Source: Melieria omissa
Taxonomy: Eukaryota; Arthropoda; Insecta; Diptera; Ulidiidae
Length of the DNA: 64,000 nucleotides
Assembly (NCBI GenBank): GCA_963971225.1
Contig: OZ020267.1
Location: 7,405,574 to 7,469,573, forward strand
Reading direction: 5' to 3'
In this document: positions 14,718-64,000 of the stretch, in pieces
How positions within the stretch are numbered: position 1 is the stretch's first letter
Layout of the letters: each line of letters opens with the position of its first letter
Notes under the pieces: generated by a model
Told to the model about the DNA's origin: nothing
Databases searched by the model: none
The model's input: only the letters and a program-made list of their open reading frames with translations
Program-made: the position numbers and the translations under genes

Positions 14718-15655
14718 CCTTGTGACCGAAAAGTTTCCGGAAATTTTAAATAAAACGCAAAATTCTTAATCTTCATCAATATTTATTTTATCTCCTTCAA
14801 AATATGCTCCATTAGAAGCGATACACATATGCCAACGTTTCTTCCAATCATCAAAACATTTTTTATAGGCGCTTTCCGGTATGGCTTTGAGTTCCCTCTG
14901 CGAATTCTGTTTTACGTCTTCTATGGATTCAAAACGCGTTCCTCTGAATGGTAATTTGAGTTTGGGAAACAGGAAAAAGTGCAAGATCAGGTGAATACGG
15001 TGGCTGTTCGATGGTATTTATTGAATGTTTGGCCTTAAAATCGTTGATAATGTTGGCTCGGTGCGAGGGGGCATTATCGTCATGAAAAATCCATGAATTA
15101 TCCTTCCACAATTGAGGCCGTTTACGGCGGATATTTTCACGCGAACGTCTTAAAACAGTCAAATAATAGTCTTTACCGACTGTTTGTCCTTCAGGGACGA
15201 ATTCATGATGCACCACACCACGAATATCGAAGAAAACAATCAGCATTACCTTGATTTTCGAGCGACTTTGGCGTGGTTTTTTCGGTTTCGGCTCGTCTTT
15301 TCCTCTCCATTCCGATGATTGTTGGCTTGTTTGCATGTCGTACTCGTAGACCCATGTCTCGTCACCAATTATGATGCGTTCCATGAAAGTTGGATCGGAA
15401 TTGGCACGATCAAGCACGTCCAAAGAGACCTGTTCACGGTACTCATTTTGAAGAAAATTCTCAACAAAATCGCAACGCACTACTGAGGTGAACTGGTTTC
15501 AACAGCTGCCGTAAACAAATTGTCTGACAGATCGCGCTCATTTTTGGCATAGTAATTAAGGACAGTGCTACCAACCTACAGAAACTTAAAATATCGAAAA
15601 ATATACAGCGCGCGAATTTTAAATGAGAATTTCCGGAAACTTTTCGGTCACAATG
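14718..15655 (-). mobile_element. 5'-deleted mariner, family 4 (938 bp)
   Basis: Terminal inverted repeats of about 28 bp read CCTTGTGACCGAAAAGTTTC at the left and CATTGTGACCGAAAAGTTTC at the right (inward). TA flanks both ends (14716-14717 and 15656-15657). It inserted into a region rich in CCGCATTCGC/CCGCATCTGC motifs, which continues on both sides. Confidence 0.9.
14766..15480 (-). pseudogene. Mariner transposase catalytic domain, frameshifted
   Basis: The upstream frame (15480 down to 14929) covers the catalytic domain: GDETWVYEYD carries the first Asp and FHDDNAPSH the second. Right after PPYSPDLA the frame breaks, and the rest (FLFPKLKLPFRGTRFES onward to 14766) continues in another frame. 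The small deletion at the break removes the codons that would hold the third catalytic Asp. The N-terminal helix-turn-helix is also missing. It is therefore a dead copy that still has both terminal repeats and could only be moved in trans. Confidence 0.85.
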
Positions 15656-34240: not shown

Positions 34241-34992
34241 TCAGGTGTACAACTTTGCTTCCGCCGTTTTCCGATAGGTGGCTGTACCGGCTGAGGCTGG
34301 TTGAAATACATAGATGGTAATGCCTTTAAAGTGAGTGTGGACAGTGCCTAACGAATTGTCATCGCCGTTTCAGTGACAGTTGTTCTTGTTTTCGTATTAT
34401 TCACGCTCGAAAATGTCCGTTTATGTGCCCAATTCTCGCCATTTGCGGGAAGTTTTACTTTTCTGTTACAATTCGAAAAAAAATGAAGCTGAACCGCATC
34501 GAATGCTCTCAGAAACTTACGGTGATGCTGCTCTGAGTGAAAGAACGTGTCGGGAGTGTTTTCAACGTTTTAAAAATGGTGATTTCGATGTCGAAGACAA
34601 ACATGGTGGTGGAAGAGAACACGACAATGCTCGGCCTCACGTCGCAAAAGTGGTCAAAAAGTACCTGGAAACGCTGAAATGGGAAGTCTTGCCCCACCCG
34701 CCGTATTCCCCAGATGTCGCCCCTTCTGACTTCCACCTATTCCGTTCGATGGCACACGGCCTGGCAGATCAACATTTTCAATCCTTCGAAGAATTGGTAA
34801 AATGGATTTCTTCATGGATAGCGTCAAAAGAGGACTGCTTTTTTCGAGCCGGGATCCGAAAATTGCCGGAAAGATGGGAGAAAGTTTGCGCTAGCGACGG
34901 ACAATACTTTGAATAATACATCTGTAAGCACTTTTTCGCAATAAAGCTTTTAATTTTGGAAAAAAACGGCGGAAGCAAAGTTGTACACCTGA
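34241..34992 (+). mobile_element. Internally deleted mariner, family 6 (752 bp)
   Basis: Terminal inverted repeats of about 30 bp start TCAGGTGTACAACTTTGCTT and are almost identical at both ends, flanked by TA (34239-34240 and 34993-34994). It carries an uninterrupted reading frame made from the two ends of a mariner transposase. Confidence 0.92.
34413..34916 (+). CDS. In-frame deleted mariner transposase (HTH plus half catalytic domain)
   Basis: A continuous 167-residue frame. Residues 1 to about 65 form the N-terminal DNA-binding region (LREVLLFCYNSKKNEAEPHR, then CRECFQRFKNGDFDVED, a typical mariner helix-turn-helix end). At about residue 68 it jumps to HDNARPH, which holds the second catalytic Asp, followed 34 residues later by the third in SPDVAPSDFHLF. 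It ends with the normal mariner C-terminus. The first catalytic Asp and about 150 residues are missing, yet the junction stays in frame with no stop. Such a product could bind its own terminal repeats but not cut. Whether it is expressed is unknown. The start at 34413 is the first Met before conserved sequence; the frame is open a further 11 codons upstream. Confidence 0.75.
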   Translation: MSVYVPNSRHLREVLLFCYNSKKNEAEPHRMLSETYGDAALSERTCRECFQRFKNGDFDVEDKHGGGREHDNARPHVAKVVKKYLETLKWEVLPHPPYSPDVAPSDFHLFRSMAHGLADQHFQSFEELVKWISSWIASKEDCFFRAGIRKLPERWEKVCASDGQYFE

Positions 34993-46034: not shown

Positions 46035-47403
46035 ATAGAATAGAATAGAATAGAATAGAATAGAATAGAATAGAATAGAATAGAATAGAATAGAATAGAA
46101 TAGAATAGAATAGAATAGAATAGAATAGAATAGAATAGAATAGAATAGAATAGAATAGAATAGAATAGAATAGAATAGAATAGAATAGAATAGAATAGAA
46201 TAGAATAGAATAGAATAGAATAGAATAGAATAGAATAGAATAGAATAGAATAGAATAGAATAGAATAGAATAGAATAGAATAGAATAGAATAGAATAGAA
46301 TAGAATAGAATAGAATAGAATAGAATAGAATAGAATAGAATAGAATAGAATAGAATAGAATAGAATAGAATAGAATAGAATAGAATAGAATAGAATAGAA
46401 TAGAATAGAATAGAATAGAATAGAATAGAATAGAATAGAATAGAATAGAATAGAATAGAATAGAATAGAATAGAATAGAATAGAATAGAATAGAATAGAA
46501 TAGAATAGAATAGAATAGAATAGAATAGAATAGAATAGAATAGAATAGAATAGAATAGAATAGAATAGAATAGAATAGAATAGAATAGAATAGAATAGAA
46601 TAGAATAGAATAGAATAGAATAGAATAGAATAGAATAGAATAGAATAGAATAGAATAGAATAGAATAGAATAGAATAGAATAGAATAGAATAGAATAGAA
46701 TAGAATAGAATAGAATAGAATAGAATAGAATAGAATAGAATAGAATAGAATAGAATAGAATAGAATAGAATAGAATAGAATAGAATAGAATAGAATAGAA
46801 TAGAATAGAATAGAATAGAATAGAATAGAATAGAATAGAATAGAATAGAATAGAATAGAATAGAATAGAATAGAATAGAATAGAATAGAATAGAATAGAA
46901 TAGAATAGAATAGAATAGAATAGAATAGAATAGAATAGAATAGAATAGAATAGAATAGAATAGAATAGAATAGAATAGAATAGAATAGAATAGAATAGAA
47001 TAGAATAGAATAGAATAGAATAGAATAGAATAGAATAGAATAGAATAGAATAGAATAGAATAGAATAGAATAGAATAGAATAGAATAGAATAGAATAGAA
47101 TAGAATAGAATAGAATAGAATAGAATAGAATAGAATAGAATAGAATAGAATAGAATAGAATAGAATAGAATAGAATAGAATAGAATAGAATAGAATAGAA
47201 TAGAATGGAATAGAATAGAATAGAATAGAATAGAATAGAATAGAATAGAATAGAATAGAATAGAATAGAATAGAATAGAATAGAATAGAATAGAATATAA
47301 TAGAATAGAATAGAATAGAATAGAATAGAATAGAATAGAATAGAATAGAATAGAATAGAATAGAATAGAATAGAATAGAATAGAATAGAATAGAATAGAA
47401 TAG
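46035..47403. repeat. AATAG pentanucleotide array, about 1.37 kb
   Basis: About 273 nearly perfect units. I see only single-base departures near 47206 (GGAAT) and 47297 (ATATA). On the minus strand it reads as endless Ser-Ile-Leu-Phe-Tyr repeats in several frames; these are not genes. The array resumes at 63982, so a BEL/Pao element inserted inside it. Confidence 0.97.
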
Positions 47404-47648
47404 TGTTCAAATGTGTTCGTTCCAGTGATCTGTGGATCCTGCAATGATCCAATCCTCTCCCTTCCAGTCCCCTATGTATTTATGTCCCACTTTCCCAATC
47501 CACCGGCTTCGGCCGTCTGTCTCGTCCAATGTTTTTTTCACTTTGTTCATTCGTGTTTTAAACATTCAATAAAACGCACGCGCCACCGAACTCCCGCGCC
47601 TTTCCATTTATTTAAAGCGATCCGCCGACGGCTCAGAGATCTTATTTA
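47404..47648 (+). repeat. BEL/Pao 5' LTR
   Basis: It begins TGTTCAAATGTGTTCG and ends GATCTTATTTA, and is repeated at 63737-63981. It contains a poly(A) signal AATAAA at 47568-47573. The end is set by the following primer-site TGG and by the 3' copy, which stops at the same base before the AATAG array. Confidence 0.93.
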
Positions 47649-47662
47649 TGGTCCTTCGAGCC
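47649..47662 (+). promoter_or_regulatory. BEL/Pao tRNA primer binding site
   Basis: TGGTCCTTCGAGCC directly follows the 5' LTR. TGG complements a tRNA CCA end, and TTCGA fits the T-loop position. I do not assign the tRNA. Confidence 0.7.
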
Positions 47663-49052
47663 ACCGCGAACCCGCGACAGTAAAAACATTTAACAAGTGA
47701 AACATAAAAAAAAACATTCAAAACCAACAGTGACATACAATAGTGACATAAAATATTACAAAAGTGACACAGTGAACGAAAACAGCAACAGTGACACAAA
47801 ACATCCAAACTGTGCAACAACTACAAAACAGTGAACAGTGAGAACAAGAGTGAACAACATACACCAACTATAAAAATATGAGGTAAAGGAACCAAAAAAA
47901 TAAATAAATAAAACTAAATTAAACAAAAAGTGAAGAGTGAGCCCCTTACAAAAAAAAAAATACCGAAAGCCAACCCCGGCCCCCCTTTTTTTCAAAAAAA
48001 AACAAAACAAAAAGTAAAAACAGGCAACCCCGGCCCCCCTTAAACAAAAAAAAAAAAAATTAATTAAAATTAAGTGGAGCACAGAAAAACAAAAAACCAC
48101 AGTGCAGTGCAATTGCAACGAACAACGAAAAATCACATAACAACAACAACACACACTACGCTGACGAAGAGGGAAGCGACATCGAACAAACCACAAGAGC
48201 TCTAATTATCAGGACGGACTGACACTCAACGCAAAGGAGAAGCACTGGAAGCAGCCAAAAAAGCGGACGGACGGATTTTAAAAATCAACGAGGGAGATCC
48301 CAAACTCGGGCACTGGGCCCAACAAAGATAAGCCCATAAAAATTTTGTGTCAAAATTAACAACACATATACTAACCAATACATACATATTTCAAAAATCT
48401 ACAAAAATACCAATTTCCCATTTACACATTAATTAGCATTCACATACGAACATCCGCATACACATATATTTCAAAAAATAACAAAAAATCTTGGAAATAA
48501 AAATTTAAACTTCCCAAGTCAATTATTAAATTGCGGTTTAATAATAACATATATAACCACATACCGAATTATTTGCCGTTGAATATTGTATATATATACA
48601 ATATTCAACTGGATCAAAAACACCGCAAAGTAGTTCCGCTACTGCCCAGTAGTTTGCTTCTTTTTCACATTTCCCCTGCACATTTCGCGCTTCTTTTACA
48701 CAAGGCTCGCATTGCGGCAAGAAATAAGCGCGGATCTATTTTCCAATTTTCTGCACATATTCTTGCACCTCTCTCTGGGCAATATTTACATACGCCATTC
48801 CCCCTCCTTTTCTTTGTGCTTTGCACACTCAGCAGCAAAAAACCCAGCTGCTACCTACATTCTGCTTGATCACTTGTCCATATTCACTCATTTTCCCTTG
48901 TGCACTTCGCGCTTGTACATAAGACCAGCAGCGACAGCCCAGCTGCTGTGTACATTCTGCGCACCCACGTCTGCACATAGTTCCGTGTTTCCCTTTGTGC
49001 TATATCCGCAAGCACTTGGCAGCACGCAACTCAGCTGCTTGGCCCAAGTGCA
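47663..49052 (+). other. BEL/Pao leader, left part, with splice donor
   Basis: A- and C-rich, low in structure, with almost no ATG before 47878. GTGACA and GTGAACA phrases repeat. At 47878-47882 ATGAG is followed at once by GTAAAG, a good splice donor. Two GGCCCCCCTT-type motifs lie at about 47978 and 48032. The rest, to the errantivirus insertion point at 49053, shows no coding frame I support. Confidence 0.6.
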
Positions 49053-49056
49053 TATA

Positions 49057-49569
49057 AGTTAGTTCCGACTTGATCGGAACGCGTACTTTATTCGTGAAAG
49101 CTCAACTTAAACTGAAACTACCAGCTAAAAACTTCTTACAAACTAGCCCAAGCCCGTCGCTGAACAGCGCTGCGTAATCGATATTGCGAAATCGATGCTT
49201 GCAGCCCTGTCAGCGTTTCTGTCCGAAAAGAGCGGACGCCGCAATGCGTTGCGAAATTAGTCGCAGACGCATTGCCAGCTTTCTTTTGCCGAAATTATAA
49301 GGCTGTTGACATTAACCGAAGTGCCAATGCCAACAGCCGGAAAAAGTGCGTTCCTCAGCAACATTGTATGGTTGTTGACATTAACCGAAGAGTTAGTGTC
49401 AACAGCCGAAAAAACGCGCTCCTCAGCAACATTGTATGGTTGTTGACATTAACCGAAGAGTTAGTGTCAACAGCCGAAAAACCGCGCTCCTCAGCAACAT
49501 TGTATGGTTGTTGACATTAACTGTAGTGTTAATGTCAACATCCGGAAATATTGGTGCCGTCCGTCAACT
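49057..49569 (-). repeat. Errantivirus 3' LTR
   Basis: It matches 56214-56726. In the element's direction it begins AGTTGACGGACGGC and ends GGAACTAACT. AATAAA (plus strand TTTATT) sits at 49087-49092. The U3 part has tandem units of about 68 bp, each with a near-palindrome of arms GTTGACATTAAC and GTTAGTGTCAAC, best copies at about 49310-49545. Confidence 0.95.
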
Positions 49570-49580
49570 CCTCCCCCCTT
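49570..49580 (-). promoter_or_regulatory. Errantivirus polypurine tract
   Basis: In the element's direction AAGGGGGGAGG lies directly before the 3' LTR and would prime plus-strand DNA synthesis. Confidence 0.85.
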
Positions 49581-49601
49581 AAAAACGATTGTCCCCAATC
49601 G

Positions 49602-50904
49602 TTAAAAGTAGGGTAGGTCGCTGATTTTTTTAGTGTTATTGAGGTGGAGCTGGTTCAGCTGCTCCAGAGAAAGTAAGTTAAGGAAGCCTTCCTCTTGGGG
49701 AGTCATTTGCACCATTGGAGGGTTGGCTTCCATGAGGGGTGCCTCTAGGTTTCGGTAAGTCGTGTTATCAATTTTAAGAGTGGAATTATAAAATTTAATT
49801 AGCAATGTTCCCCCCATTGTTTGGTTATTGACTGTACCATGGAAGTCGTTCAACAGGATTACACCGGAAGAAATTTCCTCTAACCTTGGTAAGTGGTATC
49901 CGTGAGTTAGCAGACACGACGAATTAAGTCCGTCCAACAGTCTTGGTACGCATGGGTCACTAGATATGTCGACTACTTGGGCTTTCTTACATATTCTTAT
50001 ACTATTAATGGTTACACAATTACTTAATACACCTAAAGTTGTTCCATTATTTCTTAATAACTGCTTATACTTTACGTTTACAATTCTGTTATTTCTTATT
50101 ACCGGTTTGACAGTAATACTAATATAATTTTCTTTGCTTGTGAGCGGGATTTGGATGACGTACAATAGGGTCTTATCTCCGTACAAGATTTTGATATCAG
50201 CATATTCGAGGGCTTCCTCATCGGAAGTGAATAACATGTTTTCCTCTTTTAACTTTCTTAATGCTAATTCCATTTCTCTTTTGTTTAGTAACATTGAATT
50301 GAGTATGTTATTCTTCGCCCATTGTATGGCGTATTTAATGTTTACCAATTCTTCTTTTACCAATCTTAACCTAGTTTGGATATCTAATGTCGCCTCGCTC
50401 ATAATGTTGCTATCTTTGCGTATGGCGTTACTTATATCATTAGTCATCGTAGTCAATTTATTAATTCTTGCCATTAGAGCTTCGTTTATAATAACCTGCC
50501 TATTAGTATTACTTATTGTTTCATTTAGTACATCTAAAACTAGCTGGAAATCGTCGTGGTCCGGTGACCCCGCGATATATTTCCAGGCTGTCCCCAGAAT
50601 ATTCAAGGCTCGTTTCTTTCTCGATGGCTCATTCGGTTGTATGGCGGTAAAGATCTGGGATGTTTGGTCGATTTCCTGGATGAGGAGTGGGAATAGGATG
50701 TTGTTCTTGGGGATGCTCTGCTGGGTGTAGTTCCGCACCTTATCGATGAAGGATTCGTACTGGTTCAACTTAATGACATGAACGATCTTGAAGATACCGT
50801 CCTGCACTTTTCCAACTCCATTGTTTAGCGTAATAAGGTGGGAAAGGGTGTAGTTGAAAATCTTCACCTCGCTCGCCAAGATGATGAGAAGGGGTGATAT
50901 GATT
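49602..50904 (-). CDS. Errantivirus Env-like frame (baculovirus F-type), spliced, no membrane anchor
   Basis: This frame is homologous to insect errantivirus envelope proteins (class I fusion-type, related to baculovirus F). An RKKR cleavage-type motif near one quarter of the length is followed by an ALNILG hydrophobic stretch. A long helical region and the conserved LTHGYHLPRLEEISSGVILL block follow. No ATG fits the start: a splice acceptor (TTACAG ending at 50905) lies just before a hydrophobic signal-like segment (IISPLLIILA), so the initiator should come from an upstream exon, as known for gypsy env. The frame ends at 49602 soon after a NNTKKISDLPYF segment without any transmembrane helix, which relatives have. 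Entry function is therefore doubtful. About 433 codons; not joined here. Confidence 0.8.
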
Positions 50905-50923
50905 CTGTAAGATAGGGGTAAGA

Positions 50924-53900
50924 TTAGCTCTTGATGTTGCTCTTATGAACAACCTTTCCTGACTCAGTAAGAACAGTGGTGGACTTATCTTCCTTAACAA
51001 TTTCCTTCCTAAATTTTGGCGAGAGCTTGGTTCCTAATCGTTTGTTTATTCTAACGTAGATAGTCTCCCCTGGTTTGTATTCCTTAATCGGTTGACGATT
51101 TTTGTTATGGTTCTCTAAGTCAGTTTGTTGTTTATTCTTTAATCGCTGAATGTTGTCTTGTCTCGTTTTCTCGTACGTTTCGGGATCTATGTTAGCTGTT
51201 CGTCCAAAGAATACGTCTAGTGGTTTTTTCCCTATTGTGCTATGGATTGAAAAGTTATACTCGTACACCGATCTCTCTAATAGTTCCTGGAATGTTCTGT
51301 TGATATCTTCCGCTTTAATGCAACGCATGATCTCCGTAAGCGTGGAATGGAACCGCTCTACTTGTCCATTCACTGTACTCGTATATGGTGGGGATGTGTA
51401 AATTTCGATTCCTAATTGATCCTTTAAAAGAAACGTAATTGTAGCAGAGTTAAACGATTTTTCGTTGTCGAATACGACCATCTTCGGGACTCCGAATAAG
51501 AAAAGAATTTCTCGAAGGGGTTCTCTTATGTCTTCAACGGCTTTTGATTTGATGATTCTAGCCTGAGCGTATTTCGAAAATTTGTCTATTGCCGTAAGAA
51601 CGAGTTTGTTCTCAGTTCTATAGATATCTATGTGAAGGATTTGACCAGGATACGTGGGAATAGGGGTCTCCTTTAACTCCGGTTTCATTGGGTGCCGATC
51701 GTACTTATTAAGTTTGCAAACCGCACACTGCTTGACAATTCTATTGATTTTACTGTTCATACCAGGGAAGTAGTATTCCTCCAATATCTGGGTTTTATTT
51801 TCCTTTCCGTTTCGATGTGCTCTTTTGTGCGTTTCTATAATTATCTGCTCCTGTTGTCGTTCATCCTTGATGTCTTTTACCTGGAGGCGTGCAAATCTAA
51901 TTTTGTATTTAGCAAAGTTATCTGGGAAAATTTCTTGAATTTTTCCCATCAGGGATTCCGGAGCTTTAATACCATTTATAACGGAAGGGTTTAAAAATTT
52001 CTGTAGAAGCGAGACAAGCTTTCCCGTAGTGTACTCGGGCTCTGTAATAGTGTGGCGGTGTAATGTGGGAAAAACGATCTCGAATTTATAAGTTGATTCC
52101 GAATCGGTGCATAAAATGATTTGATTCTTGAATGCGTTTATAGGTGCTTTGACAATGTCAATGAGCTTCTGGCCTGAGCTTTCGTTGCTGTGAGTCATTC
52201 CCGACATTGTGTTTATTGGGGAGTGGGGTGGTATTCTGGAAAGAGCGTCTGCTACTACATTGCTAGTACCTGGCTTGTAAAAGAGTTCATAGTTGTATTC
52301 CTCTAACACCGCCTTCCAGCGCTTCATTTTGCTGTTATTGTTTTTGTTACTTAAGGCGTATGTAAGAGGCTGATGGTCGGTAAAAATTTTGACCTTAGCA
52401 GAACCGTAAAGGTAATTGCGCAAAGAGTTCAGGGCCCAGATGATCGCGAGCATCTCTTTCTCGTTTACAGCATAGTGTTCCTCAGTCCTGCTAAGAGTTC
52501 TCGAGATAAACGTGATAGGCTTATTATTTTGTGAAAGGACCGCACCTAAAGCAAATTCCGATGCGTCCGTCGTCAACTCGAAATGATCGTTGTAGTTCGG
52601 ATACGAGAGTAAGACGTCTTCTGAGACTAGCGAATTTTTTATCTTATTAAAGGCATTTGCAGCCCCCGTATTCAAGTCTATGAAAATTTTTGATGACATT
52701 CTTTTTGACATACGACCTTCTTCCCCTCTTAGGAGTGTTGTTAAAGGCTTGGCCAGCTTCGCATAGTCTTTTATAAAACGACGATAGTATCCTGACAAGC
52801 CGAGAAATGAACGTAATTCTTTGATTGTTTTGGGCAACGGAAAATTGATGATAGTATCCACTTTTTTCGGGTTGGTTTTGATTCCTGCCTTTGAAATGAC
52901 AAAACCTAAGAACTCGACCTCCTCTTTAAAAAAATGGCACTTGTCCAATTGGACCTTCATATTAGCTTCCTGGAGTGTTCTAAAAATGTTTTCGATGTGG
53001 CATTTATGCTCTTCCTCTGATTTGCTGAAGATGACAATGTCATCAATATACACGTAACATGATTTGCCAATGTAGTCGTGGAGGATATCGTCCAGGGCCC
53101 GTTGGAAAATCGAAGGGGCATTTTTCAACCCAAATGGCAATCGAGTAAACTCGTATTTACCATTATTTATCGAAAAGGCCGTCTTTTCGATATCAGAGGG
53201 TTTCAGTGGTATTTGATGGAACCCACTCTTGAGGTCGAGGACCGAAAAATATTTACAGTCCCCTAATTGCGATACTACTTCAGATATTTCTGGAATAGGA
53301 TACCTATCCGGAATTGTGAGAGAATTCAGCTTACGGTAGTCAATTACCATTCTATATTGCTTGTTGCCCTGCGAGTCTGGCTTCTTGTCGACAATCCAGA
53401 CCGGAGAGTTGTAGGGGGACCTAGAAGGTCTGATTATACCATCATTAAGCAGTTGCTGAACTTGCCTTTCGACTTCTTGCTTTAGTGCTGTGGGGTATGG
53501 GTAGAATTTACTGTAAACTGGGGAATCCGTAGTAGTCCTAATCTCCCCGACCACCTTTGTGGTATAGGTGAGCTTTTCATCGGGCTCAGAGAAAAGTGTT
53601 GGGAACTTGTTTATCAGTGTCCCCATTACGTCTGTTTGCTCATTCGTAAGTTTGTCGTCCTTCAGTAGATTCACGGACTGGGTGGATAACTGTTTGATTT
53701 TTATTCTAGAACCATTCTTTAAAATCATGTAGTTTTTGCCTGCGTGGATTACTGCGCCTAATTCTTTGAGACTGTCATTTCCTAGGATGCCGTGAAATGA
53801 CCTGAGGGATGGCATAACAAAAAATTTAAGTTTATTTTCTAGGTTGAATAAGTTGATGAAGGTATGTTCCTGTATTTTGATGTCGCCTGCTACAGATTTG

Positions 53901-54046
53901 GCGAAAAAGGGAATGGCGTTGTGATAGGTTTTCCTCGCAAGATTTGGCTGGATGTAGTTCTTGCTTGACCCAGTATCTACCAGGAATTTTAGTGTCTCTC
54001 CGCTCTCGGTTTTACATTCAAAGTAAGGGAGCGAAGAGTCGCTCAT
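50924..54046 (-). CDS. Errantivirus Pol (protease, reverse transcriptase, RNase H, integrase)
   Basis: An intact frame of 1040 codons. Protease: FLVDTGSSKN at about residue 24. Reverse transcriptase: SGFHQIPL, then the catalytic YIDD near 335. RNase H: TTDASEFALGAVLSQ near 494 and TDHQPLTYALS. Integrase: a His-His-Cys-Cys zinc module near 740-775 (HKRAH then CAVCKLN), catalytic Asp in HIDIY near 805, Asp in FDNEKSF near 857 and Glu in VERFH near 895. The ATG at 54044-54046 overlaps the gag stop by four bases (ATGA), and a slippery site lies just upstream, so Pol is probably made by frameshift or reinitiation. All catalytic residues I can check are present. Confidence 0.95.
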   Translation of the reverse strand: MSDSSLPYFECKTESGETLKFLVDTGSSKNYIQPNLARKTYHNAIPFFAKSVAGDIKIQEHTFINLFNLENKLKFFVMPSLRSFHGILGNDSLKELGAVIHAGKNYMILKNGSRIKIKQLSTQSVNLLKDDKLTNEQTDVMGTLINKFPTLFSEPDEKLTYTTKVVGEIRTTTDSPVYSKFYPYPTALKQEVERQVQQLLNDGIIRPSRSPYNSPVWIVDKKPDSQGNKQYRMVIDYRKLNSLTIPDRYPIPEISEVVSQLGDCKYFSVLDLKSGFHQIPLKPSDIEKTAFSINNGKYEFTRLPFGLKNAPSIFQRALDDILHDYIGKSCYVYIDDIVIFSKSEEEHKCHIENIFRTLQEANMKVQLDKCHFFKEEVEFLGFVISKAGIKTNPKKVDTIINFPLPKTIKELRSFLGLSGYYRRFIKDYAKLAKPLTTLLRGEEGRMSKRMSSKIFIDLNTGAANAFNKIKNSLVSEDVLLSYPNYNDHFELTTDASEFALGAVLSQNNKPITFISRTLSRTEEHYAVNEKEMLAIIWALNSLRNYLYGSAKVKIFTDHQPLTYALSNKNNNSKMKRWKAVLEEYNYELFYKPGTSNVVADALSRIPPHSPINTMSGMTHSNESSGQKLIDIVKAPINAFKNQIILCTDSESTYKFEIVFPTLHRHTITEPEYTTGKLVSLLQKFLNPSVINGIKAPESLMGKIQEIFPDNFAKYKIRFARLQVKDIKDERQQEQIIIETHKRAHRNGKENKTQILEEYYFPGMNSKINRIVKQCAVCKLNKYDRHPMKPELKETPIPTYPGQILHIDIYRTENKLVLTAIDKFSKYAQARIIKSKAVEDIREPLREILFLFGVPKMVVFDNEKSFNSATITFLLKDQLGIEIYTSPPYTSTVNGQVERFHSTLTEIMRCIKAEDINRTFQELLERSVYEYNFSIHSTIGKKPLDVFFGRTANIDPETYEKTRQDNIQRLKNKQQTDLENHNKNRQPIKEYKPGETIYVRINKRLGTKLSPKFRKEIVKEDKSTTVLTESGKVVHKSNIKS

Positions 54047-55383
54047 CCTAAAAAATGGATGTCACTAAATTCGATAGTTTCTTCGTAATCTTCGGCACAA
54101 GTTTCGATAGAAGACAAGTATTCGTTTAATGTCTGGTCGTAAGCCTGGCCCTCTTCTGCCGTTAATGCGTTGCAGTCGTAAGGCTCCTCTGACTCCGTGT
54201 CTATATGGAAAGTGCGTTGCTCCTTGCCTGGTCGAACATTTTGTTGTGATAATGGGAGAGGTGGCCGCTTTCCTAAATACCGATTACCCTGCGGTCTGTT
54301 TGCGTAGTTGATTTGCCTAGAGCGAATGCTCTCGTCAACTTCCATCGGTTCAGGGGGTGGTGGGGGTTTGGAAGTAGTAGGACGCGGAGGTGGCTGCCTT
54401 GGGTGTTGATAAGGTTGCCTTGCAAACACGCGATTCTGCGGGTTTGGTATGTGCGCTAGTTGTGGATAAAATGGGTATAATTGTCTATCCCTCTGCGGGC
54501 TATTAATCATTTGTGGTATTGGCGGCGGCATTCGGTACTGCCGTTGATGGTTGTTTTGACCCTGCGCGTGGTTGGTGCGGAACCTCTGATTTTCGAGTTT
54601 CAGGCACAAATGAAGAGCCTGTGGTAAATCCGCCGGCTCTCTCATACCCAACAACCTAGACAGGTCGCCGTTCAACCCTCGGACAAAAGTGTCCAAGGCT
54701 TTCTCCCTATAAGTTTGTGTAAGGAGACTCAGGGCTTCCATACCGACATCTAAGCTTCCAAGCTTGTTCAATATAAGTGAAAGATGGGAATACACCGCCT
54801 GGTAAAATTCCTGGATTGTGGATCTACCCTGAACGAGGCAAGTCATCTGGTATTCGAGAGTTGACACATCACGCTTATCGGCGTAGTGAAGTGTGAGGCA
54901 TCTAGAAATTGCCTGCCAGTCAAGTGGAGTGTTATAAGACTCCAAAGCTGTGTCCGCATGACCCACGATCTTATTTCTAATAATGTTTAGGATTCCGAAA
55001 TATTTCGGTGTCCCTTTAAATGGCTCATAGATCCTAAGGATTCTGTCGACACTCTTCCTCCATGAGTTAAATTCTCCCTGTTTCCCCGAGAATTCCCTGA
55101 GGCATTTGACTACATCCGGTACCTTATCTAAATCAGACAAGTCAGCGAGGTGTCTTTCGTCTATTGCTTGGTCTGTTGCATTCGAGAAGCTTGCATTCGG
55201 ATTAAGCGTAGCCTGAATGATTGGCGGTCCCTGACTATTAAAAGTTTCAAGAGCTATTCGCGAAATGAGCGCTCTAAGCTCTATTTCGTTCATTTGTTGT
55301 GGTGGTGGGCCACCAGGATTGGCATTAGGATTTATAGGTGGATGAAGGATTGGAGGACGGATCAGATTGTTGGGGTTTGCCAT
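54043..55383 (-). CDS. Errantivirus Gag
   Basis: A frame of 446 codons ending in TGA at 54043-54045. The N-terminus is Pro/Asn-rich; a capsid-like helical core spans roughly residues 80-290 (for example LREFSGKQGEFNSWRKSVD and an LTQTYREKALDTFVRGLNG segment). The C-terminal part is rich in Pro, Arg and Gln (PPPRPTTSKPPPPPEPMEVD). There is no CCHC zinc knuckle, which is normal for errantivirus Gag. It forms the particle shell and packages RNA. The ATG at 55383 is the first in the frame after the leader. Confidence 0.9.
   Translation of the reverse strand: MANPNNLIRPPILHPPINPNANPGGPPPQQMNEIELRALISRIALETFNSQGPPIIQATLNPNASFSNATDQAIDERHLADLSDLDKVPDVVKCLREFSGKQGEFNSWRKSVDRILRIYEPFKGTPKYFGILNIIRNKIVGHADTALESYNTPLDWQAISRCLTLHYADKRDVSTLEYQMTCLVQGRSTIQEFYQAVYSHLSLILNKLGSLDVGMEALSLLTQTYREKALDTFVRGLNGDLSRLLGMREPADLPQALHLCLKLENQRFRTNHAQGQNNHQRQYRMPPPIPQMINSPQRDRQLYPFYPQLAHIPNPQNRVFARQPYQHPRQPPPRPTTSKPPPPPEPMEVDESIRSRQINYANRPQGNRYLGKRPPLPLSQQNVRPGKEQRTFHIDTESEEPYDCNALTAEEGQAYDQTLNEYLSSIETCAEDYEETIEFSDIHFLG
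54049..54055 (-). promoter_or_regulatory. Gag-Pol slippery heptamer
   Basis: In the coding direction the bases read TTTTTTA with gag-phase codons TTT-TTA, a canonical -1 frameshift site, three bases before the overlapping ATGA. A -1 slip here enters the pol frame directly. No downstream pseudoknot was assessed. Confidence 0.65.
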
Positions 55384-56204
55384 TATTATTGGTTTTTCGT
55401 AAATAAAGTTCGCGACCGAATTTTATCCAATTTCCTTAACTTAACTCTTAATTCTTGTATTTTATTTTTTCGTTTTGATTTTTACTTTATTTTATTTTGA
55501 TCTTTTCCCTGTTTGAATAATTTGCTCCAAGCACTTCTTATGGATTGGAATTCTTCAATTAATTTCTTTTCTTTAGATTCAAACTTACAAAATAACGGCG
55601 TCCAGCTTCATGCTGCCTTTGACTGCTATTACTGCTTCGCTGTTGCTGCTTTTTTGCTGCTGCTGCTGTCTTTTTGCTGCCACTACTGCTTCACTGCTGC
55701 TACCGCTGCTGTCTTCTTGTTGCCACTACTGCTTCGCTGCTGCTGCTTCTTCGCTGCTGCTGTTGCTGCTGCTGCTTTTGCTGCCACTACTGCTTCACTG
55801 CTGCTACCGCCGCTGTCTTTTTGCTGTCACTACTGCTTCGCTGTTGCTGTTGCTGCTGCTGCTGCCTTTTTGCTGCCACTACTGCTTCGCTGCTGCTACC
55901 GCCGCTGTCTTTTTGCTGTCACTACTGCTTCGCTGCTGCTTTCGTTTTATTTTAGATTACTCTTTTGGTTTTATTGCTTCGTACACTGCACTTTCTCAGT
56001 TTATCTGTTAATTTCCGCGGTGGAGCGGCTTGCGTTCGACGCACCCTTTTCGCTTACGGCTACTAAGGAGCCTCCTTCTCCACACTTTCAGATCGCGCGA
56101 GTCACCGACACTACTTGAGTATTTTTGGTTACGCACGACACGACTGTCCTGGCTACTTGTACTACTTAAGGACTTATAGTAGCCGGACACACGTTCAAAT
56201 TCGC
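55384..56204 (-). other. Errantivirus leader with GCA-rich tandem repeats
   Basis: The untranslated leader between primer site and gag. At 55606-55945 irregular repeats read on the plus strand as CACTACTGCTTCGCTGCTGC and TACCGCCGCTGTCTTTTTGC. Plus-strand Leu/Cys-rich frames here are by-products. The env splice donor should lie in this leader or near the gag start, but I could not fix it. Confidence 0.75.
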
Positions 56205-56214
56205 TCGGGCGCCA
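56205..56214 (-). promoter_or_regulatory. Errantivirus primer binding site
   Basis: In the element's direction TGGCGCCCGA, matching the 3' end of a lysine-type tRNA; its first base overlaps the LTR's last base, as in other errantiviruses. Confidence 0.75.
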
Positions 56215-56726
56215 GTTAGTTCCGACTTGATCGGAACGCGTACTTTATTCGTGAAAGCTCAACTTAAACTGAAACTACCAGCTAAAAACTTCTTACAAAC
56301 TAGCCCAAGCCCGTCGCTGAACAGCGCTGCGTAATCGATATTGCGAAATCGATGCTTGCAGCCCTGTCAGCGTTTCTGTCCGAAAAGAGCGGACGCCGCA
56401 ATGCGTTGCGAAATTAGTCGCAGACGCATTGCCAGCGTTCTTTTGCCGAAATTATAAGGCTGTTGACATTAACCGAAGTGCCAATGCCAACAGCCGGAAA
56501 AAGTGCGTTCCTCAGCAACATTGTATGGTTGTTGACATTAACCGAAGAGTTAGTGTCAACAGCCGAAAAAACGCGCTCCTCAGCAACATTGTATGGTTGT
56601 TGACATTAACCGAAGAGTTAGTGTCAACAGCCGAAAAACCGCGCTCCTCAGCAACATTGTATGGTTGTTGACATTAACTGTAGTGTTAATGTCAACATCC
56701 GGAAATATTGGTGCCGTCCGTCAACT
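56214..56726 (-). repeat. Errantivirus 5' LTR
   Basis: The copy of 49057-49569, identical except at 56437. It would drive the element's transcription on the minus strand. Confidence 0.95.
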
Positions 56727-56730
56727 TATA

Positions 56731-57627
56731 TACTTGTATATACATAAACAAGAAAGCACAGAGCGGGCACAGTGGGACAAGGTGCGCATTTTCACGGCAC
56801 ATTGAAAATTTTCTTTGACTTAGAAAATTTTCAATCGTGCATATATATATACATATATATACACTCATATTCACTACACACATACACGTCATTATATACA
56901 GTGGGACCACAAGACCCATCCCAAGTACATTGAAAATTTTCAACTTAGAAAATTTTCAATTGTACATATCACACGTTCACTGCACATACACTTACCATAC
57001 ATACAGTGGGACAAACATAACCCACCAGTACACAAAAAATTTTATTTTTTCCCTCATACAATTAAATACATTTTACTAAATTTACTAACAACAATTAACC
57101 AATATTATATTCAAACATATAATTTGACATACACTTACACTTATATTTTTGTGTTTCACATATTTTCATACACGTACCCATACATATTTATTTGTCATAC
57201 ATTTTACATACATTTATACACATACACACCCATTTTTATTTATTTTCGTTTTAATAAAATAAATACAAATACACATACACAAATAACATTGACGGTCACT
57301 TGTTGTTTTCATTGTACTAAATTATACACACATACAAATTCTCATTTTCTCGGATTCCGCGGTTCAAATTTACAATTTTGTGATATTTTCTCGTATTATT
57401 CCCATACGGTTATTAAAGTTGGCCAACAAATTAAAGGCGATTTCCCATACAATCGAATAATCTTCACACATTCGTGTAATTTTTCGATTTTGTCAAATTT
57501 TAAGCCGTTCGTGCGGACGCGGCCAACTAACCCCTTCGTGCATTCCCATTCTCAGGTGGAAATTCAATTTCAATTTTTTCGCACCTGAACCCCCTCTCAC
57601 TAAAGCTTCGCTTTTTTATATTTTTCA
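56731..57627 (+). other. BEL/Pao leader, right part, with hairpins and a repeated motif
   Basis: The leader resumes after the errantivirus. CAGTGGGAC occurs at 56770, 56899 and 57004. Two perfect 13-bp inverted repeats (ATTGAAAATTTTC with GAAAATTTTCAAT) form hairpins at 56801-56835 and 56929-56960. The stretch 57080-57290 is rich in ACATAC/CATTTATAC. These could be packaging or translation signals for the genomic RNA. No coding frame precedes 57628. Confidence 0.7.
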
Positions 57628-60600
57628 ATGCCGGTAGAGCGTTCGCCCAAAAAACAATCAGACGCGATGGAGCCAACCGCCTCCAAACAACCCCCTCCCA
57701 AGGTGTCAACCGATTTTTTTTTGACAGACACTGTCACTCGTGAGCCGCCAAAAACGCGCTCCAAATCTCCCATTCTCAAAGCAACCGATCCTAGCGTTGC
57801 CAAATTCATTTTCGAATCCGATCAGCTCGTGCAATTATGCACAAAGTTTTCTGCGACCCCCATTGAGGAACAAACGAAGTCCCTCGTCCAAATTCGTCAA
57901 AAGAATTTGGAAGTCCAATGGACTAGGCTTATGCAAGCATATGAGGCAGTCTCCATTGCGGAAGACAGCAGCCAGCCCGACCGTTTCAAGGAGTCGGCTC
58001 GGCAGAAGAACGAAGCCTGCATAGACCAATATGAGTTGTGCATGGCTCAAATGTCGGACATCATTGAGATGCTCCAGCCTCCACCCACACAGCACGCTGC
58101 GCAGACGGAACAGGTTCGATCCCCAGAACCAACAAATACTACGAATATTTGTTTACAAGTTCCACCTTGCGATACCGAAACATTTTTCGGGGGCTATGAG
58201 CAGTGGCCGTCCTTCCGGGACATGTTTACGGCAGTATACATAAATCACCCCAAGCTCACTCCAGCCCAAAAATTGTATCACCTCCGATACAAGACGCAAG
58301 GCAAAGCCGGTGCAATTGTGAAGCAATTTGCCTTAAGCGACGAAAACTTCGGACTCGCATGGGAAGCCCTGAAATCCCGTTACGAAAACAGGCGCATATT
58401 GGTTGACAACCAGATTCGTTCCTTGTTGAATATCACTCCGGCTACTACCGAAAATAGCGAAGCGCTGCAGCGGATTCAAAGTACAATAAATAATTGTCTA
58501 TCAGTACTTAGGTCCCAGGCCGTGGACACTGACAATTGGGATCCGCTGCTTGTGTACATTTGTTGCACCAAATTACCCGAAGAGACATTAGCTCTCTGGG
58601 AACAATCCCTTACATCTCGTAAGGACCTGCCTCTTTGGTCGCAAATGGACGAGTTCCTGACCTGCAGGTACGAGGTGGTGGAACGGCTCAATAGCATTCG
58701 CCCCGCTAAGCCAAAACCACAGTCTCCCAATTTCCATACTCCCCAAAATCGGCCTCAAAATAAATCTCAGCACTTCCATACTGAGGTGAAAAAAGACTTC
58801 GCGTGCAAACTTTGCAACGCCAACCACCCCATTCGAACATGTCAGAGTTTCAAGAAGCTCACCCCCCAGAGCCGATTGAAATACGTCAAAGAGCACAACT
58901 TGTGTGAAAATTGTCTTGCCACAACGCATACCATAAAGGATTGCACAAGCAGTTTTACGTGTGTTTACTGCCAAAGGAAGCATCATTCCCTGCTTCATTT
59001 CCCCAACAATAAATCCCAAGCCCCGCAGCCTCTCAATAGGTCTCAGACGACCACTTCTCAGGTCGCAACGGCTCATCACCAACCGAACAACAACTCCACT
59101 ACTCATGCCCCCACTTCAGATTCGCAACCCGGCCCATCTTCAAGGCTAAGTACGCCTCAAGTACAAGCCCTTCATTCCAATAATGGCACCCAATCCCTTC
59201 TGCCTACGGCACTGGTGTCTATTGCCCACTTAGGAGAGTTGTTCAAGGTTAGAGCGTTAATCGACCAAGGCTCGCAACGCACCTTCATTTCCTCGAAGGT
59301 GCAAAAACGCCTAAAACTGCCTATTGAAAAATCGCACTTCGAAATTTCAGGCATGGGCGGTAAAATTGTGCAAAATGCTAATCACATTTGCTTTTTGACG
59401 TTGGCAGTTCCAAACTCCAGCACGACCCTCAATGTGCAAGCAATAGTACTCCCCCAATTGACGAAATTGCTACCCCCATTCACAATTAGCCATCCCAATT
59501 GGCAAGAATTTGCCACGCTAAATCTCGCGGACCCAAATCCATTCGAGTCAGCGCAGATAGATCTAGTAATTGGCAGTGATCTGATTCCCCAGATCTTACT
59601 CGAAGGTATCCGCCGAAATGTCTGTGGCAGCCTATTAGCCCAAAACACCATTTTCGGTTGGATACTCAGCGGGCCAGTACCCCACACGGTGTCAGCTTAT
59701 TCGACATACGTGGCAGAAGTCTCCAATGAGGAACTTAGTTCACAACTCAGGCAATTCTGGGAGCAGGAAGAAGTCAAACTCCCGACACCTGTCTCCTCGG
59801 ATGACACTTATTGCGAAGAGTTATACCAGAAGACCACAACCCGTGGATCGGACGGTAGATATACTGTTAAACTCCCATTTAAGGCAGAATTTCCATACAC
59901 CATAGCGTTAGGCAATTCCCGCCCAAACGCCCTCCAGCAATATGTTAGCATGGAGCGAAATCTCTCCCGAAAGGGAAACCTCAAGACCATCTACGATGAC
60001 GTCTTAGAGGAATATCTCACCCTTGACCATATGGAACTCACAAATCCCCGTGAGATAATCCAAAATGGCAAGTACTTTTCGTACTATCTGCCTCATCACG
60101 CAGTCATCCGCCCCGAAAAGAAGACTACCAAAGTCCGAGTAGTCTTCAATGCCTCAAGGTCCTCAAGTTCTGGTCAGTCACTTAATGACGTTCTGCATAC
60201 TGGCCCCACTCTTCAAAATGACCTCACAGCTCTCATTCTCCGATGGCGCCTTTACCGCTTTGTCTTCAATGGCGATGTCCAGAAGATGTATAGGCAAATT
60301 CGGGTCCATAATGATCACCAGGAATTCCAGCGAATACTCTTTCGCAAATCCCCGGAATCTCCTATTCAAGATTTCAAATTGAAAACGGTGACATTTGGGG
60401 TTAACTGTGCGCCATATTTGGCCATCAGAACGCTCCATCAATTGGCCCACGACTCTCAGCCATCCAGCCCGTTAGCGGCAAAAATACTTCTCGAGGAAAC
60501 GTATGTCGACGACATTCTTTCCGGAGGTCATGATCTTCCAACCACTAAGGAAGCCCTATCTCAAGTGATAGCCACCCTCAACTCCGGGGGATTCCCTCTA

Positions 60601-63054
60601 AAAAAGATAACGGCTAATCACGCAAAACTCTTAGAGGAAATTCCCGAAGACGACCTTTTCGATTCGGAATTCCTCAAGTTCGATTCAACGAGTTCTACTA
60701 AGACTCTTGGCATCCGTTGGAATGCCCTATCGGACTCATTTTCATACTCCATCTCTCCCACTTCTCCTGCAACCTCATTCACGAAAAGGCAAATTCTTTC
60801 TTCCGTTGCCAAACTTTTCGATCCCGCAGGATGGCTTTCGCCTATAATGATTCTTGCCAAAAAGCTTCTGCAAGAGCTTTGGCTTGAAGGTACTGAGTGG
60901 GACGAGTGCATAAAGCCAGGATCACTTATTAAATGGCAGCAATTCATTGAGAATTTGCCTGCCATAGAACTTATCGAAATTCCCCGGTGGGTTAACTATG
61001 CTCCCAATCGAAATGTTCAGATCCATGGATTTTGCGATGCCTCCGAAAAGGCATACTGTGCAGCTCTATACATACGTATTAGCACGAATGGTGACCACCT
61101 CGCGTCACATCTCCTTGTTGCGAAAACAAGAGTTGCACCTCTCCAAACAATAAGCCTACCTCGCTTAGAGCTTTGCGGAGCAGTTTTACTCTCCCAGCTC
61201 ATCAAATCCCTCCGCTCTCACCTCGGGTTCGATCAATCGGAAATCCATTTATGGACCGATTCGGAAATTGTCCTTGCTTGGTTGGAAAAACCACCTTGCA
61301 CATGGAAAACTTATGTTGCCAACCGCACGACTGAAATACGTCAAAATGTGCATAACGCTCCCTGGCGACATGTCCCAAGCGCTGAAAATCCCGCGGACTT
61401 AGGAACGCGCGGATGTAAGCCGCAGGATCTCAAAGATCACACTCTGTGGTGGAGTGGCCCCAAATGGTTGCAGCAAGCTTCCGATGCTTGGCCCAAAGGT
61501 CACTCTCGCAACGTTCCAGTCCCGGAACAACGAGCAGTTGATTGCCACCACCTTCTCGAAGAGCAGACCGACATCCTCGATCGGTTCTCCAGCTTCTCTC
61601 GAGCCCTGCGAGTAATCGCGTACATGTTCCGCTTCATTCATAACGGCATCTCCTCCCGTCGCCAGCAACATCCCATACACGGAACACAGTTATCCCAAGC
61701 AGAGTTGGCATTTGTTAAGAATCGCCTTATAACTCTCGCGCAAAGTTCCTATTATCCCCAGGAACGACAAGCGCTCTCTCATTCGCTTCCCATATCCAAG
61801 AAAAGTTCTCTCTTGGTACTCAATCCCTTCTTAGACAAACAGAAGGTGATGCGAGTTAATGGCAGACTCGCCAATGCGGCATTGTCGTATAATGAACGAC
61901 ACCCCATCATTCTCCCTCCAGAGTCCCGCTACTGCAGTTTGCTTCTTCGCTTCCTTCACAAGCTATTACTGCATGCGGACCAACGACTCATGCTCCGTAT
62001 GGTTCGGCAGGAATATTATATTCCGCGCCTAAAGCCGCAAATAAAAAAGTGCATTTTTCAATGCAAAACGTGTGTCATCCATAAACAAAGGCTGCGGACA
62101 CAGATTATGGCAGCACTCCCTCCCGAACGATGCACACTCACCATCCCATTCGCCACAACGGGAATCGACTTTGCTGGTCCATTCCAGATTAAAGCTTCCA
62201 TGCTCCGTAGCTCAACCTACCTCAAAGGTTATGTTGCAGTGTTCGTGTGCTTCTCCACGAAAGCCGTTCACTTGGAACTTTGTTCGGATCTTACGACCGA
62301 AGCGTTCCGCGCAGCATTCGCCCGATTTACTGGTCGACGAGGGCTACCTCTCAAACTCATGACCGACAACGGCAAAACGTTCGTCGGTGCTCAACGTGCC
62401 ATGGCCAGAGACTTTGCCAAATTCTCGAGAGAAATCGCCCAAGATATTCTCGACCGATACGGTCCTCAGGGCGTCGAGTGGCAATTCATTCCCCCACATG
62501 CTCCTCACATGGGAGGACTATGGGAGTCGGCGGTCAAAAGCTTCAAGACCCACCTTAAAAAGGTAGCCGGCTCTCATAGATTCACATACGAAGAGTTTAC
62601 GACTCTTCTGACTCGAATTGAAGGGACGCTTAATTCACGTCCACTCTCTCCTCAATCGCAGGACCCTAGCGATCTAGTGTCTCTGACCCCTGGTCACTTT
62701 CTCCGAGGCGCTCCTCTCGCCGCCCCCCCCGAACCCGAGTGCTCCGAGCTATCCCTGATTAATCGATGGGAAAAACTCAAAGTCCTCCATCATCAATTCG
62801 CCCGACGATGGAAGGACGAATATCTCAAGGATCTCCACAAACGCTATAAGTGGAAGCATCCGCAAAGGGAAGTGGAAGAGAATGAAATGGTCGTCATTAA
62901 GGACGACCTGCTTCCCCCCAATGAATGGCGGCTCGGCCGCATTCATAAGATTCATCGCGGTCCCGACAATCATGTCCGTGTCGTGGATATCCGCACTGAC
63001 TCTGGTATCTTGACAAGACCAGTAGTCAAGCTATGCCCCTTAATAGCGTCTTAA
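57628..63054 (+). CDS. BEL/Pao Gag-Pol polyprotein
   Basis: A single intact frame of 1808 residues. The Gag part has a DUF1759-type capsid region from about residue 187 ([17 protein letters not shown]). Three nucleocapsid zinc motifs lie at about 392-457 ([40 protein letters not shown]). An aspartic protease follows with [10 protein letters not shown] near 545. Reverse transcriptase has [17 protein letters not shown] and catalytic YVDD near 959. A Peptidase_A17-type segment and RNase H ([14 protein letters not shown] near 1133, then [11 protein letters not shown]) come next. Integrase has a zinc module near 1448-1484, Asp in GIDFAGPF near 1512, Asp in MTDNGKTF near 1578 and Glu in [10 protein letters not shown] near 1631, then a DUF5641-type C-terminus. 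It has all the parts for replication. The start is the first ATG of the frame, after a leader without competing long frames. Confidence 0.95.
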
Positions 63055-63156
63055 ACTCATTCGGCTCCATGCCCTGCTTTCTCATACACATCTTCTCATT
63101 CTCTACCCACTCACTATTATTATATATTAGTGATACACTCTTCTTATGTTTTGCAG
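63055..63156 (+). promoter_or_regulatory. Pol-ORF3 spacer with strong splice acceptor
   Basis: The stretch after the pol stop is pyrimidine-rich and ends CTCTTCTTATGTTTTGCAG at 63156. Composition changes abruptly from AT-rich to GC-rich at this point, as at an intron-exon border. Confidence 0.75.
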
Positions 63157-63709
63157 GGCAACTAGGAAGCAGCAGGTCGCCCAGCAATGCCGGCTGTGCC
63201 ACCACCTCCACGGCATACGATATTGCCGGGCCTTCCTGGCGATGGCACCGCAGCAGCGACAGCAGGTGGCCCGCGCCCAGGGCTACTGCACTAACTGCCT
63301 GGCGCGGTCCCACCCCACCAACCGGTGCAACTCCACCGCTCGCTGCAGCAAGTGCGGCCGAGCGCACCACACTATGCTGCACTTCAGTAAAAGGACAGCC
63401 GCAGCAGCAGCGGCCAGGGCCGCAACGAAGGGCGGCAAGCAGCCGCAACGTCCGCGACAGCAACCCGCTCCAGCTCAGCGCTCTGTGCAGCGCTCCACCC
63501 TTGCTGATCGGCTTACACGCCACCGCCGACAGCCCCAACCACGAACCAGCCGTTCCGCAGCCGAGGCAGCAGACCAACGGCAGCTGATCGCCTTCAGCGA
63601 GGACGAGGCCTCCACCGACGGAACCCCCGAGCCGCGCGTCGGAGCCCGCGCCCTCATCGAGCAAGCTCTGGAGGCATTGGGCCGGCTCAGTGAGCAGCTC
63701 CGGCATTAA
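63157..63709 (+). CDS. Spliced accessory ORF3 of the BEL/Pao element: zinc-knuckle, Arg/Ala/Gln-rich protein
   Basis: This frame follows the acceptor ending at 63156. The leader donor after 47882 leaves ATG plus AG; the exon's first G completes the codon, so splicing gives an in-frame start and about 185 residues ending at TAA 63707-63709. Near the N-terminus are three zinc motifs: CRLCHHLHGIRYC, CTNCLARSHPTNRC and CSKCGRAHHTMLH. Spacing and order match the nucleocapsid motifs in the element's own Gag, with a similar linker. The rest is rich in Arg, Gln, Ala and Pro, and ends with an acidic patch (FSEDEASTDGTPEP) and a helical Leu-rich tail. Roughly two thirds G+C by eye, far above the rest of the element. 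An unspliced ATG exists at 63146 but lies in the intron. The role is unknown: RNA binding or a Gag regulator are possibilities, as is a captured host exon. Confidence 0.72.
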
Positions 63710-63736
63710 TGTTGCCAGAGGCAACGCGGGCCGCCA
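63710..63736 (+). other. Junction before the 3' LTR, no obvious polypurine tract
   Basis: It holds a short hairpin (GTTGCC, AGA, GGCAAC at 63711-63725) and GCGGGCCGCCA directly before the LTR. A purine run, expected here for plus-strand priming, is not visible. Confidence 0.6.
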
Positions 63737-63981
63737 TGTTCAAATGTGTTCGTTCCAGTGATCTGTGGATCCTGCAATGATCCAATCCTCTCCCTTCCAG
63801 TCCCCTATGTATTTATGTCCCACTTTCCCAATCCACCGGCTTCGGCCGTCTGTCTCGTCCAATGTCTTTTTCACTTTGTTCATTCGTGTTTTAAACATTC
63901 AATAAAACGCACGCGCCACCGAACTCCCGCGCCTTTCCATTTATTTAAAGCGATCCGCCGACGGCTCAGAGATCTTATTTA
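63737..63981 (+). repeat. BEL/Pao 3' LTR
   Basis: The copy of 47404-47648 with one difference (63866). It ends in GATCTTATTTA, followed by the AATAG array. Confidence 0.93.
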
Positions 63982-64000
63982 AATAGAATAGAATAGAATA
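63982..64000. repeat. AATAG array, continuation at window end
   Basis: Almost four AATAG units to the last base, continuing the array interrupted at 47403. Its full length lies outside the window. Confidence 0.9.

Follow-up and report, generated by a model that had tools for sequence, protein, structure and literature searches.

A candidate spliced third gene for a nucleocapsid-like zinc-knuckle protein in a BEL/Pao retrotransposon of the fly Melieria omissa

The profile of the International Committee on Taxonomy of Viruses (ICTV) describes the extra gene of BEL/Pao retrotransposons as env-like and of unknown function, and their replication as poorly understood (PMC8742986). In the accessible sections of two further papers, the only extra genes mentioned are env or env-like (PMC3118150, PMC4276936). 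The nearest described design that we found is CERV of Cer1 in C. elegans, a spliced-RNA product that, according to the accessible part of its description, is needed for export of the genomic RNA via a Cys-rich loop (PMC10309623). Here we analysed a stretch of 64,000 nucleotides (nt) from the fly Melieria omissa (contig OZ020267.1, positions 7,405,574 to 7,469,573), referred to as the window, which carries a BEL/Pao element with a third open reading frame (ORF3) downstream of gag-pol. An earlier note on this DNA had read ORF3 as a spliced gene for a zinc-knuckle accessory protein. We consider it likely that this lineage encodes a free-standing, nucleocapsid-like RNA-binding protein in a spliced accessory gene, in which a start codon in the leader is predicted to be joined to an exon behind pol. 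Conservation of donor, acceptor, phase and frame as well as purifying selection are seen at the sequence level, and we infer that splicing of ORF3 occurs.

The leader of the window copy contains the start ATGAG followed directly by the putative donor GTAAAG, as the earlier note had reported. Read without splicing, the same start gives ATG AGG TAA, an upstream frame of two codons. The native leader of ~2.3 kb is interrupted by a nested retrotransposon and falls into three pieces of 229 nt, 1173 nt (47883-49055) and 903 nt (56726-57628). Apart from the one at 47878, there is no ATG in any of them; the part before 47878, which had been described as nearly free of ATG, contains none from the end of the long terminal repeat (LTR) onwards. 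Dinucleotide shuffles gave expectations of ~4.1, 15.3 and 9.9 ATGs (~29 in total), and 0/500 were as ATG-poor for each of the pieces; the 229-nt piece alone was not significant under single-base shuffles (P 0.08). The distance of ~15.3 kb between donor and acceptor is as had been measured, but about half of it consists of the nested element. Since this element sits in the BEL leader, the putative intron of 15,274 nt would be ~7,600 nt long without the insertion.

A search of the 490-Mb genome (164 contigs) revealed at least 40 copies of ORF3 at the DNA level, the window copy included, and all counts out of 40 refer to these listed copies. The leader set (n=36) consisted of the window leader, the upstream regions of 31 DNA-found copies (out of the 39 besides the window's) and four leader matches (L077-L080). 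Of the 31 upstream regions, L070 and L071 were located through a leader match and the remaining 29 purely by distance. The primer site was recognised in 21 leaders, hereafter readable leaders, which form 11 groups at 90% identity and are therefore not 21 independent cases. In all 21, ATGAGGTRA provides the first ATG downstream of the primer site, at a distance of 144-246 nt, and AGG is invariably the codon that separates start and stop. It is the sole ATG in 12 of the 21 (383-1200 nt read). Together, the primer site and the ATGAGGTRA block rank top among the 10-column stretches of the leader alignment. Since a stop (TAA or TGA) and GTRA are preserved together in this motif, its conservation alone cannot tell a donor from a minimal upstream frame. 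Two other candidates were set aside. A leader structured as an internal ribosome entry site (IRES) found no support in the folding of 301 nt (47640-47940), which was no better than that of shuffles (z -0.64), and splicing of gag from the same donor to an acceptor near 57554 was dropped, the resulting frame by eye not matching gag.

At the other end, the predicted acceptor (CTTCTTATGTTTTGCAG/GGCAAC, the slash marking the junction) ends at 63156, the frame is open from 63157 to its stop and the split codon AG/G is compatible across the predicted junction, so that these parts of the earlier description hold as well. TTGCAG/GG is found in 38 of the 40 DNA-found copies, the other two (L022, L037) being without alignment there. 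A translated search of the genome gave 2,462 first-look candidates, of which 150 were scored; the census of acceptor and frame covered 63 loci, the 40 DNA-found copies and 23 of 25 further ones (L075, partial, and L100, divergent, were omitted). CAG/G was scored by script as in phase in 59 of the 63. Among the remaining four, L096 has the site with a mutated zinc motif, L022 lacks that end and in L083 the site is shifted; L007 has the acceptor in the DNA alignment and was presumably scored out because the script took an earlier match. The expectation that other copies would keep donor, acceptor and frame was thus borne out in 21/21 leaders and 59/63 loci. At least 165 codons are open in 30/40 DNA-found copies. 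The same GC-rich stretch also has open frames of 195 amino acids (aa) on the forward and 237 aa on the reverse strand, and one antisense frame is stop-free in 15/36 copies; because of these other long frames, openness alone is weak evidence.

A different account, which we regard as quite improbable, takes ORF3 as a real gene with a local start at the ATG at 63146, served by an internal promoter, by reinitiation or by an IRES; the leader frame would then do no more than regulate gag. In the window copy the acceptor indeed includes an in-frame ATG at 63146, which makes another start conceivable there, and in 21/21 readable leaders ATG AGG TAA/TGA by itself forms a frame of two codons. However, just 20 of the 59 in-phase loci have an ATG in frame in the five codons before exon 2. 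Since the local ATG is often absent and the AG acceptor is nevertheless kept, splicing is favoured. The constant middle codon AGG also speaks against a local start, as does a sister family without ORF3, which lacks such a leader frame in the pieces read.

The predicted ORF3 product has ~185 residues. Its three zinc motifs, CX2CX3HX4C, CX2CX4HX4C and CX2CX3HHX2LH, are identical in order and spacing to those of the element's Gag, in agreement with the earlier note; the two zinc regions share 26 of 65 residues (alignment score 168, best shuffled 54). By its zinc ligands (full pattern in 28/36 aligned copies) ORF3 resembles a nucleocapsid-type zinc-knuckle protein. Pfam zinc-knuckle models gave no match to ORF3 at E<=1, and a search of the PDB gave a weak match to HIV-2 nucleocapsid (E 0.31). 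No envelope-like domain was detected in ORF3 with Pfam; by this search its product is of the zinc-knuckle type and not a membrane-fusion protein, which agrees with the proposed accessory protein in place of Env. No capsid-type domain was detected with Pfam either, and two matches under their cut-offs were taken as chance. The linker behind the zinc region is rich in Arg and Lys. Single-sequence AlphaFold modelling of ORF3 gave a mean predicted local distance difference test (pLDDT) score of 52, with a last helix (model residues 167-186) of block pLDDT 96 and 93 from residue 171. Because of its zinc knuckles a nucleic-acid-binding role is plausible; the protein would bind RNA, and may multimerise via its C-terminal leucine-rich helix.

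ORF3 is under purifying selection, as the earlier note had asked of it. For the codon model, copies below 165 codons (in the second set below 170) and duplicates were removed, as were L013, L075, L081, L083, L097, L099 and L100 (damaged, partial, shifted or very divergent), which left 36 unique copies. The whole frame gave an omega of 0.285, with a log likelihood (lnL) of -3962.4 vs -4058.8 at omega 1. The zinc region is the most constrained at 0.128 (lnL -1289.3 vs -1387.7 at omega 1, same tree), and the acidic part with the helix gave 0.217 (lnL -989.6 vs -1031.8). As a yardstick, omega was 0.177 at the C-terminus of pol, measured in 19 of the 36; the remaining copies were too short in the piece, interrupted by stops or duplicates. 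Pairwise dN/dS among seven ORF3 representatives ranged from 0.23 to 0.63, with an upper confidence bound of at least 1 in 2/21 pairs. Preservation of ORF3 and its splice signals in many copies suggests that the element needs the gene.

Several results weigh against the proposed gene. A spliced DNA copy was sought genome-wide with an exact degenerate 18-base junction pattern, which covers the window subfamily and some others and misses the exon 2 starts GGCATC, GGCAACCAAG and GGCAACCAGAAG; it gave two hits vs three control hits, neither adjoining element sequence. An ATG-free leader is not universal, as 9/21 readable leaders contain one to four extra ATGs, and 14 of the 36 leader regions had no recognisable primer site and one was cut. 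The complete zinc pattern is present in only 28 of the 36 aligned copies, and the structure model is of low confidence outside the last helix. No relative of ORF3 was found in a set of 5.8 billion proteins, where none of 377 candidates reached E<=0.01, or in viral contigs, where 32 sequences matched the pattern and none was confirmed; these collections presumably contain little insect DNA. The codon model took in copies with a long open frame only. The linker (omega 0.82, lnL -1440.6 vs -1441.5) is indistinguishable from 1, and of 38 indels across all 40 copies 13 are in-frame, without bias to multiples of three, as would be expected if many copies are dead.

The last two results could also be read as signs that ORF3 has no function and is a passenger or a captured fragment, its frame still open through chance and because copying was recent. 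Several long open frames do arise in the GC-rich DNA here, and eight of the listed copies, the window's among them, are 99-100% identical, so that many copies are young. Against this stand the omega of 0.285 (2 delta lnL ~193), dS values of ~0.14-0.49 between more distant representatives, the concentration of constraint on the zinc region and the C-terminus, and a related gene that a divergent BEL copy has in the same position. We therefore hold a passenger fragment to be very improbable.

In this divergent copy, L103, which is interrupted, pol pieces show 70-75% identity over three stretches; over a fourth it is 46%. Its ORF3-like gene shows the same zinc spacing and begins ~120 nt past the pol match, behind the acceptor-like TCTTTCTCCACAG in another phase. 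The helix-like C-terminus lies in a shifted frame, the copy thus being damaged. With 41/65 identical residues, the zinc region of ORF3 is closer to that of L103 than to its own Gag (26/65); a recent duplication of the element's Gag is therefore unlikely, and ORF3 probably predates the family of the window element.

The sister BEL family mentioned above is 77-81% identical in the Gag zinc region, with more than 50 members among the matches listed. ATGAGGTRA is absent from 10/10 of its leader-side pieces, five of which have the primer site. Three leaders (L104, L110 and L116) contain no ATG over 927, 1273 and 1516 nt, and in two (L106, L108) the first ATG lies at 910 and 1055 nt. None of the 14 tail pieces of sister copies has an ORF3 match, and four of these contain the 3' LTR. 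Among five near tails the 3' LTR was present in four, 100% identical to the 5' LTR over 236-248 bp. In these four copies it follows the Gag zinc region at a distance of ~1.7 kb, which means that they lack most of pol, and the family, as judged from these four, is apparently non-autonomous. Such copies may borrow pol from autonomous relatives. The relatives L104, L106, L108, L110, L116 and L123-L127 keep gag together with an ATG-poor or ATG-free leader.

A spliced ORF3 would make two uses of one start codon. On the full-length RNA, ribosomes would meet ATG AGG TRA, terminate after two codons and scan on to gag through the rest of a leader that has no or few ATGs (none in the window, the nested element aside). 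On the spliced RNA, the same ATG would open the ORF3 protein and gag-pol would be skipped. Zinc knuckles, basic linker and leucine-rich helix together would make an RNA-binding, self-associating factor. Our leading suggestion for its role, in which our confidence stays somewhat short of even, is a trans-acting factor on its own genomic RNA, in nuclear export or splicing control, as CERV is for Cer1, an element that is not of the BEL/Pao type. The wider picture is more tentative still: we hold it to be somewhat less likely than not that fly BEL/Pao elements have a Rev/CERV-like gene with one leader ATG used in two ways, that splicing switches between a regulator made early and Gag-Pol made late, and that non-autonomous relatives do without the gene.

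The zinc motifs, ordered and spaced as in the Gag nucleocapsid, and the Arg/Lys-rich linker would equally fit a second nucleocapsid that works mainly in the particle, as RNA chaperone or in packaging, and not as a regulator of export or splicing. The missing capsid-type domain in the Pfam search and the predicted expression from spliced RNA, which by analogy only resembles that of the regulatory protein CERV, count against a particle role, and we consider it somewhat unlikely. Anti-silencing and other roles share what remains beside these two. The linker is among the fastest-changing stretches (23 copies compared); more distant subfamilies are 90-100% identical to the window at the end of pol and 71-77% in the linker, which suggests that this module may have been exchanged between lineages. 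A fast linker beside conserved domains would fit a conflict with host factors, in which ORF3 counters silencing, for example by PIWI-interacting RNA or small-RNA pathways. A disordered spacer would change fast too, however, and a counter-silencing role appears improbable to us.

The window element has the Pao-type Gag and Pol domains of the Belpaoviridae; Pfam detected DUF1759 (6.5e-29) and Peptidase_A17, 'Pao retrotransposon peptidase' (7.1e-51), and no RVT model at E 0.01 in the gag-pol pieces scanned. Its primer site (TGGTCCTTCGAGCC) is presumably of the tRNA-Tyr type. With LTRs of 245 bp and ~8.9 kb without the nested element, it falls within the family limits of 0.2-1.2 kb and 4.2-10 kb (PMC8742986). 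The ICTV text gives primer sites complementary to tRNA-Arg or tRNA-Gly (PMC8742986), a list that is not exhaustive because the element Achilles likewise has a Tyr-tRNA primer site. The BEL element is inserted in an (ATAGA)n array of ~274 units (46035-47403 and 63982-64000). Pfam matches in the frames of the nested, errantivirus-like element were RVT_1, Gypsy and Baculo_F. The nested element is young, and its LTRs contain a 68-bp tandem repeat; it probably blocks gag expression in the window copy. Elsewhere in the window, the frames at 1127-2128 (-), 14929-15498 (-) and 34377-34916 (+) read, by their motifs, like fragments of mariner-type transposases. All features are listed in Table 1.

Table 1. 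Positions and characteristics of the BEL/Pao element, its predicted ORF3 and the nested element in the window, and of the related gene in L103
Feature	Position	Strand	Characteristics
BEL/Pao element	47404-63981	+	span 16,578 bp; ~8.9 kb minus nested element
5' LTR, BEL/Pao	47404-47648	+	245 bp; 1 mismatch to 3' LTR; AATAG flanks on both sides
Primer-binding site	47649-47666	+	TGGTCCTTCGAGCC...; from sequence; among the most conserved leader-alignment blocks
ORF3 exon 1, coding part (predicted)	47878-47882	+	ATGAG; sole ATG of the window's native leader
ORF3 splice donor (predicted)	47883-47888	+	GTAAAG; GTRA in 21/21 readable leaders
ORF3 intron (predicted)	47883-63156	+	15,274 nt; from sequence
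gag-pol, single frame	57629-63054	+	DUF1759, aspartyl protease, Peptidase_A17, Integrase_H2C2, DUF5641
ORF3 splice acceptor region (predicted)	63130-63156	+	pyrimidine-rich tract, TTGCAG
ORF3 exon 2 (predicted)	63157-63709	+	zinc-knuckle region, basic/Pro/Gln-rich linker, acidic patch, C-terminal helix; stop 63707-63709
3' LTR, BEL/Pao	63737-63981	+	245 bp; 1 mismatch to 5' LTR
Nested Ty3/errantivirus-like element	49057-56726	-	inside BEL leader; TATA flanks
Nested element LTRs	49057-49569, 56214-56726	-	513 bp, 1 mismatch
Nested element env-like frame	49602-50942	-	F-type
Nested element pol	50924-54061	-	
Nested element gag	54043-55422	-	
ORF3-like gene of L103	L103:4611-5201	-	same zinc spacing; 41/65 identical to ORF3 zinc region

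If the proposed reading is true, BEL/Pao elements have a second, non-envelope kind of accessory gene, likely a regulator of genomic RNA in a family with poorly understood replication. A literature search (titles and abstract openings, among the matches listed) revealed no spliced zinc-knuckle third gene in BEL/Pao; its coverage was without Repbase and most subscription journals, so that an earlier notice is possible. A third gene may also have gone unnoticed in Achilles and other BEL/Pao copies whose descriptions lack the 3' end. With a single start codon, donor and acceptor that the copies conserve, the predicted junction should be readable in fly RNA-seq.

The following comparisons refer to the accessible parts of the respective descriptions. 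Achilles of the tephritid Bactrocera oleae shares with the window element the BEL/Pao type, the single gag-pol frame and the Tyr-tRNA primer site; its frame starts ~1.9 kb after the LTR and its Gag has two CCHC motifs and one CCHHH motif, a further likeness. Compared by description only, its LTR has 672 bp vs 245 bp here, and no splicing is described for it there (PMC4580426). The sORF1 and sORF2 of MDG1-group retrotransposons are likewise small accessory genes of fly LTR retrotransposons, theirs with protein evidence; they differ in lying upstream of gag, with no splicing evidence and no zinc knuckles in that description (PMC11952523). The env of the errantivirus gypsy is, as predicted for ORF3, a third gene after pol expressed from a spliced subgenomic RNA without gag-pol, but it encodes an envelope glycoprotein, whereas ORF3 has zinc knuckles and no Pfam envelope domain (PMC4276936). 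CERV comes closest: this accessory protein of an LTR retrotransposon is made from spliced RNA, as is predicted for ORF3, has predicted multimerising parts and depends on a Cys loop for its action on the element's own genomic RNA; it differs in its 517 aa and five exons, of which exons 1-3 are in the gag frame, and the likeness is one of description (PMC10309623).

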